Source: Thalassomonas actiniarum (GTDB lineage Bacteria; Pseudomonadota; Gammaproteobacteria; Enterobacterales; Alteromonadaceae). Taken from it: 64,000 nucleotides of DNA. A program made the position numbers and the translations under genes. This document shows, piece after piece, positions 3,147 to 11,278 of this stretch. The stretch lies in the NCBI RefSeq assembly GCF_000948975.2, contig NZ_CP059735.1:5702603-5766602 (forward strand), given 5' to 3'. Every line of letters starts with the position of its first letter. The first letter of the stretch is position 1. The notes beneath the pieces were generated by a model. The model searched no databases, was not told the origin of the DNA, and worked only from the letters and a program-made list of their open reading frames with translations.

Positions 3147-3614
3147 ATGGCGCGTAAGTCAAAAAAACCTGCAGATATGTCAGCTCTGTTCCAATCAACG
3201 ACAGGCACTTTGGCACAAATTCAACGAAAAACCAACTCTTTGGCAATATTAGCCGATATTGTACGTCAAATTTGCCCCGATCTGCCAGAGGACGTTTGGA
3301 AAGTCGCCAACTTTCACTCAAATACTTTGATTATAGAGGTTAAATCTCCGGTCTGGTCACAAAGACTGCAATTTGAGCGCATGAAAATTTGCCGACAATT
3401 GCAAATTGAAACCGATAATCAGTTCCAGCAAATCGAGATCAAGGTCAATCCCCACCAGCACAGGCGCTTCCCGACAAAAGAAGCAAAAGACAAGCCGCTA
3501 AAATCCCAAGTGTTGTCACAAAAAACCGCCGAGCAATTGCTCGCGGTCGCCGACAACGCCCCCAAAGGCCTGAAAGAAAAGCTGGAAAAACTGGCAAAAC
3601 ACGTTAAAAAATAA
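3147..3614 (+). CDS. dciA: DUF721 / DciA-like protein
   Basis: This 155-residue protein begins MARKSKKPADMSALF. It has the DUF721 layout: an N-terminal helical segment followed by a KH-like beta-alpha fold (about residues 40-105, with LIIEVKSPVWSQRLQF as core). DUF721 proteins such as DciA help load the replicative helicase DnaB in bacteria lacking DnaC. The basic C-terminal tail (about 105-155) is low-complexity and Lys-rich. It is divergent from the M23 gene, and the dciA-M23-secA neighbourhood is common in marine gammaproteobacteria. The family call is strong; the DnaB-loader role is taken from the family. Confidence 0.85.
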   Translation: MARKSKKPADMSALFQSTTGTLAQIQRKTNSLAILADIVRQICPDLPEDVWKVANFHSNTLIIEVKSPVWSQRLQFERMKICRQLQIETDNQFQQIEIKVNPHQHRRFPTKEAKDKPLKSQVLSQKTAEQLLAVADNAPKGLKEKLEKLAKHVKK

Positions 3615-3714
3615 ACTAAGCTCAAACTTGGGCTGCGGGTATACAGTACATTGCCTCTCCCGGTAAATATAATCCCGGGCGCCAAACCGGTTTACCTTTT
3701 CAAGAGGTGTGCTT

Positions 3715-4914
3715 TTGCAAGAGCTGATCAACAACACGATATCAACAGCCGGTATCTTGGTCACCCTGGGCCTGCTGTTTCTTATCGGCCTGGCAGCCCA
3801 TGAGACCGGTAAAAGAACCAACATTCCCCGCGTGACCCTGCTACTGCTATTAGGGGCTATTGCCAGCCCTAACGCGCTGGATATCGTTCCCCACCAACTA
3901 CAAAACTGGTTCCCTGTCGTCAGCCAAATCGCCTTGTGCATGGTGGGATTTTTATTGGGGGAGCAATTTATTTACCGCACCCTGAGTAAATCTGGAAAAA
4001 TCGTCTGGCTCATCACCGCTTTTGAATCCGTTGCCGCATCAATTTTCGTTTTTCTACTGCTTTATCTGCTCAGTGCTCCGATAATATTAGCCTTATTACT
4101 GGCGGGAATAGCCCCGGCAAGTGCCCCGGCAGCCACCATGGACGTGGTGAAAGAAAGTCATTTAAAAGGCCTGTTGCCGGGGACATTACTAAAAGTTGTC
4201 GCCATAGACGATGCCTTTGGCATTTTCCTGTTTGCCCTGTGTTTGGCTGCGGCAGAATTTATCAGCGGCTCTCCGGGTCTTTACCTGGGGTTCTTTAAGG
4301 CCATCTGGGAAATTCTCGGGGCTATCCTGATAGGGTGTGCCATAGGCTGGCCGATGGCAAAACTTACCGGCCGCTTGTCCTCGGGCGAGCCAACCCTGAT
4401 TGAAGCTTTGGGTTTTGTATTATTAAACGGCGGGCTTGCCCAGCTATCAGGGGCATCTTACCTTCTATCCAGCATAGTACTGGGGGCGGTCGTCGCCAAC
4501 TTTGCCCGCCATCATACCCGCCCGTTTCACGCCATAGAAGGCATCAGCACGCCCCTGCTGATCATATTTTTCTTTATGGCGGGTTTTCAATTTGATATCT
4601 CGGCATTTTCCCTTATCGGCTACATTGGCGGCGCCTATATCATTTCCCGATCAGCAGGCAAGATTTTAGGAGGCTACTTCGGGGCACAAATAGCGGGCGC
4701 AGATAAGATCATCCAAAACCATATCGGCTGGTGCTTGCTGCCCCAGGCAGGCGTCGCCTTGGGATTGGCCTTAATGGCCGCCGAGCGACATCCGGAATAT
4801 GCATCACAGCTCTTATCTTTATTGGTAGGCACCACCATCATATTTGAATTATTCGGTCCTGTGCTCACCCGTATGGCATTAATCAAGGCAGCTAAAGCAA
4901 ACAAAGCTGAATAA
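3715..4914 (+). CDS. CPA2-type cation/proton antiporter
   Basis: This is an integral inner-membrane protein of about 399 residues with roughly 11-13 hydrophobic segments. Motifs are those of Na+/H+ exchangers: an early GLAAHETGKRTNIPRVTLLLLLGA segment (conserved in CPA2 proteins) and the paired aspartates in AIDDAFGI at about residues 164-171, which in this fold bind the transported cation. There is no C-terminal TrkA-N domain, so it is the short form. The TTG at 3715 is preferred because AAGAGG (3702-3707) lies 7 bases upstream; the GTG at 3709 would be too close. It is convergent with the DapF-like gene. Substrate (Na+ or K+) cannot be read from sequence. Confidence 0.85.
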   Translation: MQELINNTISTAGILVTLGLLFLIGLAAHETGKRTNIPRVTLLLLLGAIASPNALDIVPHQLQNWFPVVSQIALCMVGFLLGEQFIYRTLSKSGKIVWLITAFESVAASIFVFLLLYLLSAPIILALLLAGIAPASAPAATMDVVKESHLKGLLPGTLLKVVAIDDAFGIFLFALCLAAAEFISGSPGLYLGFFKAIWEILGAILIGCAIGWPMAKLTGRLSSGEPTLIEALGFVLLNGGLAQLSGASYLLSSIVLGAVVANFARHHTRPFHAIEGISTPLLIIFFFMAGFQFDISAFSLIGYIGGAYIISRSAGKILGGYFGAQIAGADKIIQNHIGWCLLPQAGVALGLALMAAERHPEYASQLLSLLVGTTIIFELFGPVLTRMALIKAAKANKAE

Positions 4915-5001
4915 CTCCCCGTCACAAAACCAGACTTGGCAACAGAGCCAATCATCCAGGATATTGTAAGGATTATGAAAGGCCTCAAAAGTAACATTAA
5001 C

Positions 5002-5031
5002 AATAAACAGGCAGATATAAAGCTGTTTATT
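5002..5031. terminator. Possible bidirectional terminator hairpin
   Basis: AATAAACAG (5002-5010) pairs with CTGTTTATT (5023-5031) between the convergent antiporter and DapF-like genes. It has no clear T-run on either strand and the stem is AT-rich, so this is a weak call. The rest of 4915-5122 shows nothing else. Confidence 0.3.
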
Positions 5032-5122
5032 CTAGCTGTCAGTGCAGAGTTTTCCGGCTCAAGTTTTCTTCCCCGGTTCAAGCCCGAACCCAGCATAAAG
5101 CTGGCGAACGACAGCAGTTATT

Positions 5123-5950
5123 TCAAGATAAAGCCTCATCGCACAAGTTACCTTCCGCGATTTTACCAACCGCCCCGGTCATCACGGCATTAAATTGTTT
5201 ATCCAAAGCTATCTCGATAATCCCTCCGGGCATCTGCACCGAGATATTTTCCCGGCACAAACCAAGACAATAGACAACGGCAGCTGCCGCCACGCTGCTG
5301 CTCCCGGACGCCAGGGTATAACCGGCCCCCCGCTCCCATATTTCGATCTGTATCTGCTCTTGTCCCAAGACTTTAACAAACTGAACATTTGTCCTGTTGT
5401 TAAACCTCGGCTGACACTCAATAAGCGGGCCGTACTTCCTGGCCACGTCAGGAGATAATTCGTCAACTAAAATAACGCAGTGTGGATTACCGACATCTGC
5501 CCGGTAACCGATAAAAGCTTTATCTGATGCCTGAATATTTTCCGCTGTTGCCATAAGACAATTAGGCGCATCATGGTTAAAGGAGACTTGCCCCATCTCG
5601 ACCGTAACCGACTTTCCCGATGACGACACGGATGCACGAACAACACCTCCCGGCGTTTCAATCAAAAAAGGCTCATTGGAGACTAATTTTCGGTCCCAAA
5701 GGTAACGGGAAAATATCCGCAAACCATTGCCGCTTTTTTCCGCTTCACTGCCGTCGGGATTAAAAATCTTCAAGGAAAAATCACCGTTTCTTCCCGGTAA
5801 AGGCCCAAAAAGTACGCCGTCTGAGCCTATACCGTAATGACGGTGACATAAGGTGATAACTTCACTTTCGCTCGGCTGCTGCTCGACATCTTTCGGGTCA
5901 ACCATCAGGTAATCATTGCCCAGGGCATGATATTTAGTAAATTTTATCAT
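5123..5950 (-). CDS. DapF-family isomerase homologue with both catalytic Cys replaced by Ser
   Basis: The 275-residue protein has the full two-lobed diaminopimelate epimerase fold signature: MIKFTKYHALGNDYLM at the N-terminus, NPDGSEAEKSGNGLR, GNPHCVILVD, FNNRTNVQFV and ERGAGYTLASGSSSVAAA. In true DapF the two half-site motifs carry the acid/base cysteines (Cys73 and Cys217 in E. coli). Here they are Ser73 (AGC) and Ser215 (TCC), while the substrate-binding residues around them are kept. This cannot be called an ordinary DAP epimerase; a changed reaction such as a dehydratase or eliminase is possible. It lies 4 bases after a RidA-family gene, so the two are almost surely co-transcribed. It sits in the accessory block between lpxC and dciA, which fits an added function rather than lysine synthesis. 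Confidence 0.85.
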   Translation of the reverse strand: MIKFTKYHALGNDYLMVDPKDVEQQPSESEVITLCHRHYGIGSDGVLFGPLPGRNGDFSLKIFNPDGSEAEKSGNGLRIFSRYLWDRKLVSNEPFLIETPGGVVRASVSSSGKSVTVEMGQVSFNHDAPNCLMATAENIQASDKAFIGYRADVGNPHCVILVDELSPDVARKYGPLIECQPRFNNRTNVQFVKVLGQEQIQIEIWERGAGYTLASGSSSVAAAAVVYCLGLCRENISVQMPGGIIEIALDKQFNAVMTGAVGKIAEGNLCDEALS

Positions 5951-5954
5951 CTGG

Positions 5955-6314
5955 TTATTTAGCGGTGTCGCGTACCGCAGTAACTGTCACTTCAATTAAA
6001 ACATCCCCTTCAAGGGTAACCCCAAGGCAGGCCCTTTGCGGCCAATGCTGCGGCCCAGTACCCAGCCAGGCCTGCCAAACCGCATCCATTTTTCCCTTGT
6101 CCTGCATATTGGCGATATAAACCTGGGCAGAGACAATGCGGCTTTTATCCGAAGCCATTTCAAGCAAGTTGTTCTCAATTGTTTCAAGGGTCAGCCGGGT
6201 TTGTTCTTCGATGCCAACATTCGTATCGGATGAGGTTGCCACAGTCCATACCAGATCTTTATAGGCTGAGGATTTATTTCTACCGGGATAGATCCCAGGT
6301 TTTCTTTCGATCAT
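5955..6314 (-). CDS. RidA/YjgF family enamine/imine deaminase
   Basis: This 119-residue protein belongs to the RidA (YjgF/YER057c/UK114) family, small trimeric cytosolic enzymes that hydrolyse reactive 2-aminoacrylate-type enamines and imines. The C-terminal signature WPQRACLGVTLEGDVLIEV contains the family arginine (R94, equivalent to E. coli R105) and glutamate (E108), so it should be active. The preceding PGRNKSSAYKDLVW segment is degenerate relative to canonical RidA, suggesting a diverged subfamily. It forms a two-gene unit with the DapF-like gene 4 bases downstream, which suggests that the partner releases an enamine. No Shine-Dalgarno sequence precedes the ATG (AACCTCTTATG); no other in-frame start is better. 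Confidence 0.85.
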   Translation of the reverse strand: MIERKPGIYPGRNKSSAYKDLVWTVATSSDTNVGIEEQTRLTLETIENNLLEMASDKSRIVSAQVYIANMQDKGKMDAVWQAWLGTGPQHWPQRACLGVTLEGDVLIEVTVTAVRDTAK

Positions 6315-6405
6315 AAGAGGTTATTCGTTTATTAACACGAAGCGGAAAAATATCATATTTACATGAAAGGGCATGATTTTATTTGTATCAAACTGTCAAT
6401 GGCAG

Positions 6406-6441
6406 ACAAAAAACCTCAGAGCCGTAAATATGCCCGGCTCT
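6406..6441 (-). terminator. Candidate terminator upstream of ridA-like gene
   Basis: AGAGCCG (6418-6424) pairs with CGGCTCT (6435-6441). Read on the minus strand the stem is followed within four bases by TTTTTT. It would end transcripts coming from the peptidase-like gene before the RidA/DapF pair. With the hairpin at 6559-6588 it makes two hairpins in a 285-base gap that otherwise shows nothing. Confidence 0.45.
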
Positions 6442-6556
6442 TGAATTTGTTTTGCTCTCCCCTGCCACAATTCAATATCAGCAGTGCCAACGCAATACAT
6501 TGAGGTCGGAGTAAATGCTAACTTACAAACTTATAGGGTAAAACTTTGAAATTAAA

Positions 6557-6590
6557 GCTGGGCCTCTATACCAGCTAATTGAGGCCCAAT
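6557..6590 (-). terminator. Hairpin just after the C80-like gene
   Basis: TGGGCCTC (6559-6566) pairs perfectly with GAGGCCCA (6581-6588), 12 bases beyond the stop at 6600. The T-run on the minus strand is poor (GCTTTAATTT), so this is a probable but not ideal terminator. Confidence 0.45.
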
Positions 6591-6599
6591 AGGTTAATG

Positions 6600-7652
6600 C
6601 TATTTGGCAAACTTTTTTAATAACCTGGGACTCACAGGCGTACCGTGGCCTAAGTGTTTAGGATGCACACAAACAGGGTTTGGGTATTTGGCAAAAATAA
6701 CATTGCCCATACCGTAGATATACTTGTACACCAATTTGCCATACTTCCCCTGCGGCCCGGAGTTTTGCCGCCCGGAAGCTTCCACCAAGCGGATTTTCTG
6801 GCGAAGGTAATTTAACAGCTCCCGGCTTTCATAATCATGGGCAGGTAAGCCATGGTTGCGCCTTAATGCCCGTAAGGCCGTCAATTTATCGGCCGCCGTA
6901 GTATTCTGCTCGGCAGTCACTAAAGCAATAACAAAGTTCGCTTTGGCGCCACCGGCATTTAAAAAAAGGTTTCGATTTTGGTTCCACCAGGCAATAGATT
7001 GTATTACCCCCACCTCCTGACTGATGGCCTGGTTATCTAATGTGCCCTGAATCGCCAATTCGGTTTGCACTTCAGACTTACCGGTTACCGTATTAAAGCT
7101 AAGCTCACCGGTTCTGGCGGTCATACGAACCGAACGATTCGGGCTGATACGCTGGTACAGCTTATAGGCAAAACTGTCGGTCCAGTCGATGAGATCCAAG
7201 TTCTCATGATCAAGGCGGTAATTTGAACTGCGCGCGCCAAAACACATCACCAAACTAAAATTATACTGCACATTGGGAACAAACAAGGTAAGCAACAAGT
7301 TTGCTAGCTGCTGATAGCTAACATGTTCATCGGGACGTCGGCCTAAGGTTGAACGGATCAAGCCATAGTTAACGCTGGTCATGGGGCCGTGAATGGAAAG
7401 CATGACTTGAGTGGCCCCCTGGCACAGGTTCTTTATTTTAGTCCGGTCGGTACCAAAGTCAGGATAATGGGCCCCCGTGGTAAACGCCCGGTAAAAGTCC
7501 ACCATATCAATTTCAGTGACTTGCTCGGTTTTCTTTACATGATAATTTTTAAATCTAACGGAAGGGTTCTTAATTCTTAGCGCGGTAACGGCTTTATGAC
7601 CGTCAACACCTAAATCATCAGACATATTCAAAAAGACGATTTTCTTGGGCAT
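6600..7652 (-). CDS. Putative clan CD (C80-like) cysteine peptidase, uncharacterised
   Basis: This 350-residue soluble protein has no signal peptide or membrane segment. I do not recognise a named family. Two short motifs look like clan CD cysteine peptidases: QVMLSIHGP, a hydrophobic strand ending His-Gly (H88), and NFSLVMCFGARSS, a hydrophobic strand ending Cys (C137). The His-Cys separation of 49 residues and the intervening LANLLLTLF helix resemble the C80 autoprocessing domain of MARTX and large clostridial toxins. The C-terminal 140 residues are basic and contain a helical ALRALRRNHGLP segment. AAGGAGAG lies 6 bases before the ATG. It is 111 bases downstream of the membrane toxin/immunity-like pair and may belong to it. 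The peptidase call is inferred from motif geometry only. Confidence 0.5.
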   Translation of the reverse strand: MPKKIVFLNMSDDLGVDGHKAVTALRIKNPSVRFKNYHVKKTEQVTEIDMVDFYRAFTTGAHYPDFGTDRTKIKNLCQGATQVMLSIHGPMTSVNYGLIRSTLGRRPDEHVSYQQLANLLLTLFVPNVQYNFSLVMCFGARSSNYRLDHENLDLIDWTDSFAYKLYQRISPNRSVRMTARTGELSFNTVTGKSEVQTELAIQGTLDNQAISQEVGVIQSIAWWNQNRNLFLNAGGAKANFVIALVTAEQNTTAADKLTALRALRRNHGLPAHDYESRELLNYLRQKIRLVEASGRQNSGPQGKYGKLVYKYIYGMGNVIFAKYPNPVCVHPKHLGHGTPVSPRLLKKFAK

Positions 7653-7763
7653 TGACTCTCCTTTTCACTGAAGTAGATGACATCCGTAAAACATTATACT
7701 TAAAGGAGAAATCTATACTAGAGAATGTTGCTGCTTCGTATTTACTAAAGCCTGCAACTCAAA

Positions 7764-8360
7764 CTAATACTGAGAAAAACGTTTTGAATATGCTGCCAGC
7801 TTTTCACGTACCTTACCCTCTACTTCGGGTATTGTGGGCCTGTTAGCTAACCTTTCCTGCTCTGAAATCCATGCTAAAACCTCACCGCTGACAATATTGC
7901 TACTTTTGACACAGTATTGCGGCATTATCACCCAAATATCTGGCGTTCCGGCCCTGTGCTCTGAGTAATCATAACAGTAACTATACCCCTGACTTTCAAG
8001 GTAGGATGATGATATAAATTCAAAAAGTATTCTGGAAAGAATCAAACCTACAGCCAACAAAAAAAAAGATTTAAACCCGACAGATACTTTTTTATCCGTC
8101 ATTTTACCAACCAATCTTAAATAAAAAGCAGTAGTTAATAATCCGAAAATCGCCACAATAAAAGGCACTGAAAAGGTTAACGGCCACACTTCCACAAATA
8201 TTGATTTTGAAGAGAGTTTATCAAAGTTATCAATAACATCACCCAACTCAGCAATAAATACACCTGAAATAGCTAAACAAAACAATATACCACTAATTAA
8301 GGCCAACTTATATTTATTACCTTTAGGCTCTTCAAGATAAGTACTATTGCCTGACATCAT
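7764..8360 (-). CDS. Small multi-pass membrane protein, candidate immunity protein (DUF1240-like)
   Basis: This 198-residue protein has three clear membrane segments (about residues 18-38, 60-80, 96-114). A C-terminal soluble part follows, with two spaced cysteines in GYSYCYDYSEHR and VIMPQYC; this pattern recalls DUF1240-type small membrane proteins, from memory only. Its ATG overlaps the stop of the 308-residue gene (ATGA), so translation is coupled; the second ATG, 6 bases after AGAGG, may be the true start. A membrane-resident partner encoded right after a membrane-inserting protein is the usual layout for an immunity protein. Composition is more AT-rich than the dcw genes. Function unproven. 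Confidence 0.6.
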   Translation of the reverse strand: MMSGNSTYLEEPKGNKYKLALISGILFCLAISGVFIAELGDVIDNFDKLSSKSIFVEVWPLTFSVPFIVAIFGLLTTAFYLRLVGKMTDKKVSVGFKSFFLLAVGLILSRILFEFISSSYLESQGYSYCYDYSEHRAGTPDIWVIMPQYCVKSSNIVSGEVLAWISEQERLANRPTIPEVEGKVREKLAAYSKRFSQY

Positions 8361-9283
8361 AAACCTCTAAATTGGGGGACTGCAAAAAGACGATGCATGA
8401 AGCCAAACGGATCTTCATTCGACTGCTTATGTATTTGACTTATCTTATTTTTAGCAGCTGAAATTTTCTCATCAAAATTAGCTTCCGCCTGCCTCAATAT
8501 GTGAGCAAATTGCAAGGTCAACTTATTCGAATCTATTAGCACATTAGCGCCATACGCAATCATAGAACCAATAAGCACGACCGCAATTAATGGCCCTATA
8601 GTAACCATAGTAGCCGTTCCCACAGCCATAGATACTAAGCCAGCAGCAATCGCTGTACTACTCAGGGCTATCGATGCATCAACAGCAACACCGGCGACAA
8701 AATAATGCCATGTTTTTTCTTCATCAAGTAACTGCTCTATAGAATGAAACGCTGCAGAAACAATCAAAGAAATAATAAAACCGCCCTTTATTGAATTCAT
8801 TGCACCTAGCTTACCAACACCTAGTTGAATCACTTTAGGGTTGTTTGCCAAATAACGCGTGCCAGTTAAGTGCTGCCTAAGGGCGGGATAACCTTTAAAG
8901 ATTATATGAGCTTTACCAGAATATGTTTTCACCTGGTACTTAGAAAACATACTACCACTACGTTGCATCTCAGCAGCTAATACAGATAACGCTTTGACAT
9001 CCAACGCCACAGGAATGTAACTACTCAACCCCTTAAAGCTATTCCGCTTTTCTTGCCAATGCTGATTTAGACGAGCATCATTTACCTGCAGAACAACCCA
9101 ATCCATTGCCTGCAAGTCTGTTAGCCCTTGTAATTTTTTAACACTTAGTACGAGTTCTATGAACTCCTGACTATTCATTTGTATAAAAGTATGCTGATTG
9201 GCGGCTAACAGATCGGCAATTTGATATTGGCGTTGCAATTCCTTTGCAGTAAGCGAGCCTTGAGATAGGTGGTTATTTGCCAT
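8357..9283 (-). CDS. Putative membrane-inserting effector/toxin
   Basis: This 308-residue protein has a soluble helical N-terminal half (about 1-160) and a long hydrophobic C-terminal half. The latter has segments at about 163-180, 194-222 and 224-250, separated by Gly/Ala-rich turns, then a polar amphipathic tail. The segment GYPALRQHLTGTRYLA followed by NNPKVIQLGVGKLG resembles proteins I recall as type VI-associated or polymorphic-toxin-like membrane effectors. I cannot check this and no VgrG or PAAR gene is present here. AAGGA lies 7 bases before the ATG. It overlaps the downstream membrane gene by 4 bases, an arrangement typical of toxin followed by immunity. The real function is unknown. 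Confidence 0.55.
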   Translation of the reverse strand: MANNHLSQGSLTAKELQRQYQIADLLAANQHTFIQMNSQEFIELVLSVKKLQGLTDLQAMDWVVLQVNDARLNQHWQEKRNSFKGLSSYIPVALDVKALSVLAAEMQRSGSMFSKYQVKTYSGKAHIIFKGYPALRQHLTGTRYLANNPKVIQLGVGKLGAMNSIKGGFIISLIVSAAFHSIEQLLDEEKTWHYFVAGVAVDASIALSSTAIAAGLVSMAVGTATMVTIGPLIAVVLIGSMIAYGANVLIDSNKLTLQFAHILRQAEANFDEKISAAKNKISQIHKQSNEDPFGFMHRLFAVPQFRGL

Positions 9284-9433
9284 GTATAGTTCCTTTATAC
9301 CATGTGAAATACTTTATAAAAGGTAAGTTAACTCCTGCGAAATAACAACCGCCATTTAACTGAATAATTTGCAAAAGTTAAAAATCTGCAGTCAAAAAAG
9401 ACAGTTTCAGGAAGAATAAATTCCCCCCAAAAA

Positions 9434-9492
9434 ACCTCTTCCAGCGAGTAAAGCAACGGCACCTAACTTGAGGTGCAGCTACTTTACTTTTA
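9434..9492. terminator. Hairpin downstream of symE-like gene
   Basis: A nested inverted repeat: AGTAAAG with CTTTACT outside, and GCACCT with AGGTGC inside. It lies between the symE-like stop (9551) and the toxin gene start (9283). It is a plausible terminator for symE, although the minus-strand T-run comes about 20 bases after the stem. The rest of 9284-9550 is featureless. Confidence 0.4.
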
Positions 9493-9550
9493 TTAACAAT
9501 TGCTCAGTCTACCTCTAAATTTATTCCTCAATGAAGGAGTTTGAACAAGA

Positions 9551-9805
9551 CTATTTAGGGGTGATAACCATCCTTTCTTGATTAATCTCAATACTGACCT
9601 TTTGACCGATAGGAAAACCGGCCTGTCTGAGCCATTTTCCCCTGAGGACAATACAAGGTTCAAGACTAACAGGTGCATAGCTAATGCCTATGCCGCGGAT
9701 TTTTGAGGGCGACTCGCATACCGTTTCAAGTACAGTAAACTGCCGATAAATGGGATATTTTACTTTTGCAGAGGCTGGCTCTGACGTATCATGATATTCA
9801 GCCAT
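9551..9805 (-). CDS. symE: SymE-type toxin (SpoVT/AbrB-like fold)
   Basis: This 84-residue protein has a C-terminal half matching the SymE toxin family: GISYAPVSLEPCIVLRG, KWLRQAGFPIGQKVSIEI and RMVITPK at the end. In E. coli SymE is an SOS-induced protein with an AbrB-like fold that inhibits translation or condenses nucleic acid. It is repressed by the antisense RNA SymR, transcribed across its ribosome-binding site. GGAG lies 7 bases before the ATG. A candidate plus-strand RNA with its own terminator lies opposite the 5' end (see 9799-10003). I found no consensus LexA box (CTG-N10-CAG) upstream. It is alone in the accessory block next to lpxC. Confidence 0.75.
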   Translation of the reverse strand: MAEYHDTSEPASAKVKYPIYRQFTVLETVCESPSKIRGIGISYAPVSLEPCIVLRGKWLRQAGFPIGQKVSIEINQERMVITPK

Positions 9806-10003
9806 GACGTACTCCGTTGAAGTTCGTTGTGGTTAGCGACCTCTGAGTGTTCGCGCACTTAGGGGTTGCGACTTTGGTTGCTGCCTTTTTATCAGCAGCT
9901 AGTGATAAAAAATACTGAAATGAGTGCTCTCCTCTTTCACTGGATAGCACTATTAATAAAGACCTCTTTGCTGGTTAAATCAACGGCAAGAGGTCTTTTT
10001 TTG
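9799..10003 (+). ncRNA. Candidate SymR-like antisense RNA opposite the symE leader
   Basis: No plus-strand gene exists here, yet a strong plus-strand terminator ends at about 10003. At 9836-9849 and 9856-9869 is a hairpin whose 14 pairs all form as RNA only on the plus strand: 11 are Watson-Crick and 3 are G-U, and those 3 become A-C mismatches on the minus strand. A weak promoter (TTTGCA 9765-9770, 16 bases, TATCAT 9787-9792) would start transcription near 9799, making an RNA complementary to the symE start codon and ribosome-binding site, as SymR does in E. coli. The 5' end is inferred, not seen. Confidence 0.4.
9959..10003 (+). terminator. Strong plus-strand Rho-independent terminator
   Basis: AAGACCTCTT (9959-9968) pairs perfectly with AAGAGGTCTT (9988-9997), extended by GC after a one-base bulge, and is followed by a run of T to 10002. 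The minus-strand side has no T-run, so it serves plus-strand transcription, where no protein gene lies upstream. Confidence 0.8.
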
Positions 10004-10163
10004 AAATGCATTAAGACGGGTTTGTAAGTTATGGTTTACTTCATATCTAATGAAGGCTTTAGGCTGAATAAACAGGGGAAATAATGTCACTCTGCTTATA
10101 TCTAAGTTTCAAAAAATAAGACTCGGCCCTGTCAGGTGTTAAAAAATAGCCCAAATCTACAGA

Positions 10164-10194
10164 CACAAAAAAACCGGTCAATCGACCGGTTTTG
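10164..10194 (-). terminator. Terminator after lpxC
   Basis: The perfect stem AAAACCGGTC/GACCGGTTTT sits 25 bases beyond the lpxC stop. Read on the minus strand it runs into seven T. It ends the dcw-lpxC transcription unit, so secA must have its own promoter in this genome. Confidence 0.85.
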
Positions 10195-10217
10195 ATATTC
10201 AAATTCTTGGTGGAATT

Positions 10218-11135
10218 TTAAAATGCCGAAGGGCTGGTTTCCATATAGGCGATAGGCGCTTTGGCTTCATCTTCGTAAGTCACCCATTCCCAGCAGTCAA
10301 CCTGTTTGAATACTTCACGAAGCAGCATATTGTTCAGGGCATGGCCCGATTTAAAGGCGTTTAACTCGCCTAATATGCTGGTGCCACCCATATACAAGTC
10401 GCCGATGGCATCAAGGATCTTGTGCTTCACGAATTCGTCATCATAACGCAGATCGTCTTTGTTGAGCATGCGGTACTCATCGAGTACGATGGCGTTTTCC
10501 AAACTGCCGCCTAAGGCCAGGTTATGGGAGCGTAAAAACTCGATATCCTTCATAAAACCGAAGGTTCTGGCACGGCTGATTTCTTTGATAAAAGAGCAGG
10601 TAGAAAAGTCCATGCTCATTTGCTGACAGGTATTGGCAATTACCGGGTGGTTGAACTCGATGGCAAAGTTCACGCGGAAACCTTCATAAGGTTTCAGCTC
10701 AGCCCATTTATCGCCTTCTTCAACGCGAATGGTCTTTTTAATGCGGATAAAACGCTTAGACACATTTAAGGTTTCAATACCTACAGACTGGATCAGGTAG
10801 ACAAAAGGTAAGGCGCTACCGTCCATGATCGGAATTTCCGGAGAATCGACATCGATAATCAGGTTATCTATGCCTAAACCGGCAACCGCGGAAAGCAGGT
10901 GCTCAACGGTGGAAACCTGAACACCATCTTCATTGATTAGACAGGTACACAGCGTTGTTTCGCCCACGGCTTCCGGAGTCGCAGGAATATCAACAACAGG
11001 ATCGAGATCGACCCGGCGGAATACAATACCGGTGTTTGCCTGCGCAGGACGGAGAGTGACCTGCACTTTTTCACCTTTATGTAAGCCAACACCTATTGCT
11101 GAAACGCTTTCTTTGATTGTACGTTGTTTAATCAT
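10218..11135 (-). CDS. lpxC: UDP-3-O-acyl-N-acetylglucosamine deacetylase
   Basis: LpxC removes the N-acetyl group in the committed step of lipid A synthesis. The 305-residue length equals E. coli LpxC. The zinc-site motifs are present: TVEHLLSA for the first histidine and [13 protein letters not shown] for the second histidine and aspartate, plus KSGHALNN for the catalytic histidine. The start is the ATG at 11135 ([22 protein letters not shown]), which matches the family; a TTG one codon upstream is less likely. It is the last gene of the dcw cluster. A 140-base gap from ftsZ probably holds its own promoter. It faces a strong terminator and then the accessory block. Confidence 0.97.
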
Positions 11136-11278
11136 CAAATTGCCTTTTTCTTAAGTTTCACATGTTTACACAAATGTATAGACAAGCAAAAATCAAATAT
11201 TATCCAGCCACCTGTTAAGTGGCGACATAATATACCAAAAAATCCCTCTAATATCAAAGATCCGCAATTGTAAGGAAA

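Follow-up and report, generated by a model that had tools for sequence, protein, structure and literature searches.

We describe a widespread subfamily of DapF proteins that carry serines in place of both catalytic cysteines and that, judging from their sequences and genomic settings, probably epimerise LL- to meso-diaminopimelate (DAP). DapF, an enzyme of cell-wall and lysine synthesis, is a two-cysteine, cofactor-free epimerase; if our reading is true, it would overturn the rule that this reaction, in the DapF fold, depends on a pair of cysteines. We favor DAP epimerisation because the Ser/Ser protein occurs as a sole DapF copy, because all Ser/Ser proteins fall into a single tree group, because fusion and operon links tie members of the subfamily to the DAP pathway, and because the DAP-binding residues are kept. 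Proteins with a different active site can thus be labeled DapF by automatic annotation, and we would not expect thiol-directed DapF inhibitors to act on Ser/Ser enzymes. In the open-licence literature, as far as its accessible portions extend, we found no naturally occurring Ser/Ser DapF described.

A DapF protein with two active-site serines

The window, by which we mean the whole 64,000-nucleotide stretch of Thalassomonas actiniarum DNA that was analysed, encodes on its minus strand a 275-residue protein, P0001 (5123..5950), that belongs to the DapF family (EC 5.1.1.7). It matches TIGR00652 at 233.3 bits, against a cut-off of 114.65, over essentially its full length (residues 2-269), matches PF01678 at 193.3 bits, is of DapF size, and finds DapF proteins as its best sequence matches among solved chains. 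A sequence-only reading of this DNA had claimed that both acid/base cysteines are replaced by serine, and its reading frame, strand and residues are all correct: Ser73 (codon 5732..5734, minus strand) lies in the motif EAEKSGNGLR and Ser215 (5306..5308, minus strand) in YTLASGSSS. Across a 200-row alignment of DapF proteins, the first of these columns holds serine in 126 rows and cysteine in 74, and the second holds serine in 127 and cysteine in 73, for a total of 126 Ser/Ser, 73 Cys/Cys and one Cys/Ser row; these counts include a few duplicates (L006 equals the window gene, L116 equals L083, L195 equals L098, L201 equals L027 and L203 equals L011), and L204 yielded no protein that could be used.

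P0001 thus departs from a canonical DAP epimerase at both acid/base positions and agrees with it at the DAP-binding and partner residues. Invariant in both types across the alignment are Asn12, Asn64, Gly74, Asn75, His157, Asn188, Glu206, Arg207 and Gly216, including the two partner residues His157 (5480..5482, minus strand) and Glu206 (5333..5335, minus strand), each present in 126/126 Ser/Ser and 73/73 Cys/Cys rows. Asn155 is invariant among the 126 Ser/Ser rows, and position 217, which adjoins retained substrate-contact residues, is serine in 121 of them. The roles that we give to these DAP-binding and partner residues are in part drawn from PMC8225329 and PMC5885031; the accessible portion of PMC8225329 lists substrate contacts for Asn, Gly-Asn and Gly residues.

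The sequence-only reading also held that every neighboring substrate-binding motif is kept, which stands for the substrate-binding residues but not for residues 72, 79, 211 and 218. At these positions P0001 follows a signature of its own group: Lys72 (5735..5737, minus strand) is present in 126/126 Ser/Ser and 0/73 Cys/Cys rows, ordinary rows having mostly Gln or Met; Ile79 (125/126) replaces a cysteine; Tyr211 (5318..5320, minus strand; Tyr in 122/126 and Phe in 4/126) mostly replaces a glutamate (64/73 Cys/Cys rows); and Ser218 (126/126) replaces a glycine. The signature also includes Cys35 (5846..5848, minus strand), fixed in 126/126 Ser/Ser rows and found in 15/73 Cys/Cys rows, where the position is varied. 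The Ser/Ser group lacks three conserved cysteines (73, 79 and 215), yet carries a different one that is fixed.

A sequencing error and a decaying or relaxed gene copy are both ruled out by Ser/Ser copies in congeneric genomes, two at 75-76% and a third at 60% identity to the window copy, and by low dN/dS. The latter is ~0.11-0.14 among the window copy and its counterparts in two congeners (G002 and G003), a rough value, since two of the three comparisons have a dS over 1, and on this basis we consider the window gene to be maintained.

Ser/Ser proteins form one branch of the DapF family

A genome scan for relatives, from which the best 80 of 550 were kept, returned Ser/Ser proteins at 80/80 loci; this sample is biased, as the two search patterns spare the catalytic residues but hold Tyr7 and Cys35, both marks of the Ser/Ser group. 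The same signature, Cys35 included, recurs in 41/41 Verrucomicrobiota rows that were found without these patterns. Judged by the titles of their records and their labels in the tree, the 80 loci span Gamma- and Betaproteobacteria, Deltaproteobacteria/Myxococcota, Desulfobacterales, Verrucomicrobiota, Chloroflexota, Methylomirabilota, a Nitrospira MAG and others.

The suggestion that P0001 might belong to a DapF subfamily of its own is borne out by phylogeny, in which a deep split sets the Ser/Ser proteins apart. In a tree of 195 rows without duplicates (123 Ser/Ser and 72 other), the division between Ser/Ser and the rest amounts to one change on one branch with an SH-aLRT of 100. Masking 13 signature columns in a 78-row subset (42 Ser/Ser and 36 Cys/Cys rows, without the long-branched L158 and L202) still gives one change, with an SH-aLRT of 99, which rules out that the signature columns alone cause the grouping. 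Both trees are quick and unrooted, and both reject a scatter of Ser/Ser proteins within ordinary DapF.

Pseudomonas orientalis (G121) carries two unusual members of the wider family. One is a divergent third DapF-like gene (L183:101-880) with a natural Cys/Ser pair, in motifs TCGSATR and GVPLGSGSCCC, that groups in the tree with the Cys proteins, outside the Ser/Ser group. The other is a divergent Ser/Ser dapF that follows aminotransferase, KAS-III-like, AMP-binding, short carrier-like and MFS reading frames; the region (L103:746-6810) is a possible biosynthetic cluster.

Ser/Ser proteins as the sole DapF match in many genomes

Further DapF genes were sought in 73 of the 80 locus genomes (those of L078, L082, L084, L093, L097, L108 and L112 being left out). 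The Ser/Ser gene is the sole TIGR00652 match in 51 of the 73, with coinciding coordinates in 51/51, and the other 22 genomes contain a further DapF match, which is Cys/Cys where read (19 of 22). A separate draw of 193 genomes from Verrucomicrobiota, the phylum of G104, gave 41 genomes with strong matches, which share 53-65% identity with the query (100% where the genome is that of the query itself), as well as 137 genomes with weaker matches and 15 with none. All 41 strong matches read as Ser/Ser, and 20 of the 137 weaker ones, picked among the matches listed, read as Cys/Cys (20/20). A single match is present in 35 of the 41 Ser/Ser genomes; six have several (G116, G210, G214, G243, G314 and G320), and PF01678 shows only one place for G116 and G214, so that at least 37 are sole-copy genomes, a count that excludes G210, G243, G314 and G320.

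A search with PF01678 revealed no second DapF-domain protein in 16/16 sole-copy genomes. Many genomes of the sole-copy set are MAGs. Some of the Verrucomicrobiota genomes each consist of one large contig (G227, G249, G216, G149 and G267 among them), and there the pattern is not explained by contigs that are missing. Bacteria of several phyla thus appear to have no DapF other than the Ser/Ser version, which therefore probably still performs the DapF reaction, without the residues considered essential for it. Over the best segment, the window protein shares 44-59% identity with these sole copies and 53% with a LysA-fused homolog described below.

Links to diaminopimelate and lysine synthesis

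A direct tie between the Ser/Ser subfamily and the DAP pathway is an 839-residue open reading frame in an Anaerolineae MAG (L071), which consists of LysA (TIGR01048, 353.6 bits) followed by a Ser/Ser DapF (TIGR00652, 217.6 bits). At three further loci dapL directly adjoins the Ser/Ser gene (L048, L087 and L091, the last with another DapL family), and at L054 lysC, dapB and dapA (in two reading frames) lie upstream of it. Two loci, L041 and L045, share the gene order leuC-leuD-dapF(Ser/Ser)-leuB-asd with very short spacers; the L041 neighbors were tested and asd was found at both loci, and leuC and the rest of L045 were named from sequence. The genomes of L041 and L045 also hold a Cys/Cys dapF. 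Neighbor searches with eight sequences for seven proteins (DapL, LysA, LysC, DapA, DapB, Asd and MurA) thus place direct DAP genes, the fusion included, at 5 of 80 loci and asd at two more, with mixed neighbors elsewhere. Pathway context is therefore present for the subfamily, though not for the window copy, among whose neighbors we saw no DAP-pathway genes.

LysA profile matches occur in 49 of the 51 sole-copy genomes, 28 over the cut-off and 21 below it; a few of the low matches (for example G082, at 79 bits) may be other decarboxylases. DapL, searched as one DapL family, is over the cut-off in 18 of the 51. MurE carries the motif DNPR, which we take to be of the meso-DAP type, in 16/16 sole-copy genomes tested. 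Meso-DAP dehydrogenase, an enzyme that bypasses DapF, is over the cut-off in 6 of the 51 sole-copy genomes and in 3 of the 41 Ser/Ser Verrucomicrobiota, G104 and G116 belonging to both sets. Of the three genomes in which dapL adjoins the Ser/Ser gene, two have it over the cut-off, G107 (L087) and G111 (L091). G227, whose sole DapF is Ser/Ser, likewise has a DAP dehydrogenase and for this reason offers no clean test of Ser/Ser function.

A better test is Cephaloticoccus primus CAG34 (L098/G116), which has only a Ser/Ser DapF, a DapL over the cut-off, a LysA match of 272 bits (under the cut-off), and no profile match to DAP dehydrogenase. The accessible portion of PMC5840417 places isolate Cag34 of Cephaloticoccus among 14 isolates, the majority of which have full pathways for most amino acids; lysine gets no separate mention for Cag34 there. 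For three Lacunisphaera strains and Opitutus terrae, the portion of PMC5303756 available to us reports DAP by GC/MS. TLC showed no DL-DAP in Lacunisphaera, a result that the authors attribute to low amounts, and strain IG16b of that genus is listed with both a DapL and a DapF protein. Taken as a whole, the gene context of the family points to DAP and lysine synthesis.

A possible mechanism, and alternatives

The accessible part of PMC5885031 describes DapF as having two helices placed end-on, each with one catalytic cysteine, together with an essential histidine and an essential glutamate. We propose that in the Ser/Ser proteins the serines occupy the thiol positions, each at a helix tip beside His157 or Glu206, and would act as acid/base catalysts, with the helix ends and the two partner residues activating them. 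Lys72, Tyr211, Ser218 and perhaps Cys35 would then retune the site for serine catalysis; alternatively, and still within an epimerase mechanism, Lys72 or Cys35 could be the actual base. In its fullest form, our proposal is that the Ser/Ser DapF is the sole, essential, cofactor-independent and cysteine-free DAP epimerase of whole lineages, with the two serines or a relocated Lys72/Cys35 taking the alpha proton, and we consider this somewhat better than an even prospect. Candidates for such lineages in our sample are Opitutia-type Verrucomicrobiota, Methylomirabilota, and some Anaerolineae and Deltaproteobacteria.

A clear difficulty for this proposal is that, according to the accessible text of PMC8225329, changing Cys to Ser in PddB, a DapF-like racemase, leaves <0.1% activity, and the same loss is cited there for M. 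tuberculosis DapF. By analogy, a partial precedent for a serine base exists in the proline racemase superfamily: a Ser/Cys 4-hydroxyproline 2-epimerase (B9JQV3, as labeled in a figure legend of PMC4113996, whose main text labels that epimerase differently) uses a natural serine as a base in a two-base epimerase, as far as the available part of that paper goes. Unlike P0001, this enzyme has a single serine, belongs to another superfamily and acts on another substrate. We rejected the chlamydial bifunctional DapF as a precedent, as it retains both cysteines in the portion of PMC5885031 accessible to us.

A counterpoint to DAP epimerisation is that 22 of the 73 genomes, and 4/4 genomes of the window genus, contain a further DapF, and in multi-copy genomes the Ser/Ser copy could have another task. 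Carried further, this thought leads to an alternative in which the Ser/Ser protein epimerises or racemises some other amino acid, the housekeeping DapF reaction being done elsewhere and the window genus having gained a second enzyme with a new substrate. The gammaproteobacterial carriers that we examined do retain another DapF, which is of the Cys/Cys type wherever it was read; relatives of DapF that act on other substrates are described in the accessible parts of PMC11602996 (a histidine racemase) and PMC8225329 (a Dab racemase); and the divergent Ser/Ser gene of Pseudomonas orientalis has its AMP-binding, KAS-III-like, aminotransferase and MFS neighbors. We nonetheless regard a different substrate as unlikely, given that the DAP-binding residues are kept in 126/126 Ser/Ser rows, that the window protein is so similar to the sole-copy and LysA-fused proteins, and that PF01678 finds no other DapF in the 16 sole-copy genomes. 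The replacement of both catalytic residues might instead mark a catalytically dead or regulatory homolog, perhaps one that binds RppH as in E. coli, where the available portion of PMC4227774 gives DapF a partner role with that protein. This we hold to be quite improbable: full conservation of the substrate-binding residues alongside a fixed new signature, together with the occurrence as a sole copy and in fusion with LysA, speaks for a catalytic protein.

The RidA neighbor

The sequence-only reading had paired the DapF-like protein, as an eliminase or dehydratase, with a RidA-type enamine hydrolase. The gene arrangement on which it drew is real: the dapF-like gene begins 4 bases (5951-5954) after an upstream gene for a 119-residue protein, P0002 (5955..6314, minus strand), which scores 52.3 bits against PF01042 (cut-off 27.3) and so belongs to the RidA/YjgF family. 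P0002 scores 34.9 against TIGR00004, below its cut-off of 106.25, and as a query reaches distant solved RidA chains. The analogy to the proline racemase family is also real but cuts both ways, since in the accessible part of PMC4113996 the Ser/Cys enzyme is an epimerase and the Ser/Thr enzyme (B9K4G4) a trans-3-hydroxyproline dehydratase. The latter resembles P0001 in having an active site without a cysteine pair, and differs from the role that we propose in that it dehydrates rather than epimerises and acts on a hydroxyproline.

In the loci and genomes searched, linkage to RidA was not detected beyond the genus. Within it, RidA adjoins the Ser/Ser dapF in three of four genomes searched (the window genome, G002 and G003); in G001 the two genes are unlinked, with RidA, a similarly short match, at C1:826495 and the Ser/Ser dapF at C1:3074446. 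The G001 gene (L009) also lies in a different sub-branch from L006-L008, the window gene among them, grouping with copies from Shewanella, Psychromonas and Marinomonas, which suggests separate horizontal gains of the Ser/Ser gene within the genus. Across the 80 Ser/Ser loci, of which 53 have at least 3 kb on both sides of the gene, six-frame searches with the window RidA, as a single sequence or a three-sequence profile, gave zero matches at E <= 1; these searches addressed the window RidA type only, with its own sequences as positive controls. A PF01042 search of 25 genomes (the three congeners and 22 others that have both a Ser/Ser and a further DapF) placed a RidA on the contig of the Ser/Ser gene and at most 5 kb from it in 0/22 of the latter: the nearest matches lie ~6.6 kb away in G121 (a 389-residue frame) and ~11 kb away in G131, and in G059 the gene is at a contig edge.

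On the loci and genomes searched, we reject RidA pairing as a family trait. Because adjacency was seen only in G002 and G003 besides the window, and the genes are unlinked in G001, the linkage looks like a local event in a single lineage, and P0002 is probably not a functional part of the DapF-like system. A dehydratase or eliminase whose enamine or imine product is handled by RidA, despite the close spacing of the two genes and the existence of a Ser/Thr dehydratase, is thus highly improbable, as the lack of linkage, the DAP-pathway fusion and neighbors, and the replacement of the housekeeping epimerase by Ser/Ser proteins in sole-copy genomes all stand against it.

The window genome and its surroundings

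The window genome (G000, 7.49 Mb) contains a second dapF (C1:6432363-6433157) with a Cys/Cys active site, flanked by reading frames that we take from their sequences to be lysA-like and DUF484-like. The window copy is therefore probably not the housekeeping one, and its role in this organism is less certain than in sole-copy carriers. On our preferred reading, DAP epimerisation by a cysteine-free enzyme, the Ser/Ser protein would give this bacterium, alongside its Cys/Cys DapF, a second enzyme for DAP epimerisation; we can only guess at a special use, such as a thiol-free backup under oxidation or the supply of DAP for a special product.

The Ser/Ser dapF and its RidA neighbor sit, as had been proposed, in what looks like an accessory block. 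Accessory-looking genes surround the pair, with an LpxC-like gene (10218-11138) on one side and on the other a gene at 3147, near a peptidase-like gene at 2213; names in the region 3147-11138 are partly our own assumption. A promoter scan stayed at chance level, and terminator-like matches numbered 8 against 1.9 expected. Carriage of the gene on plasmids was rejected, as every one of 108 matching plasmid records is below 60% identity; the best 20 of the 108 are 32-35% identical, 16 of them annotated as dapF. A transporter at 3709-4914 is absent from the corresponding place in G002 and G003. Three consecutive minus-strand reading frames (6600-9283; 350, 198 and 308 residues) have zero Pfam matches at E <= 0.001, and beyond them, at 9551-9805 on the minus strand, lies a SymE-type gene (PF08845, 46.9 bits).
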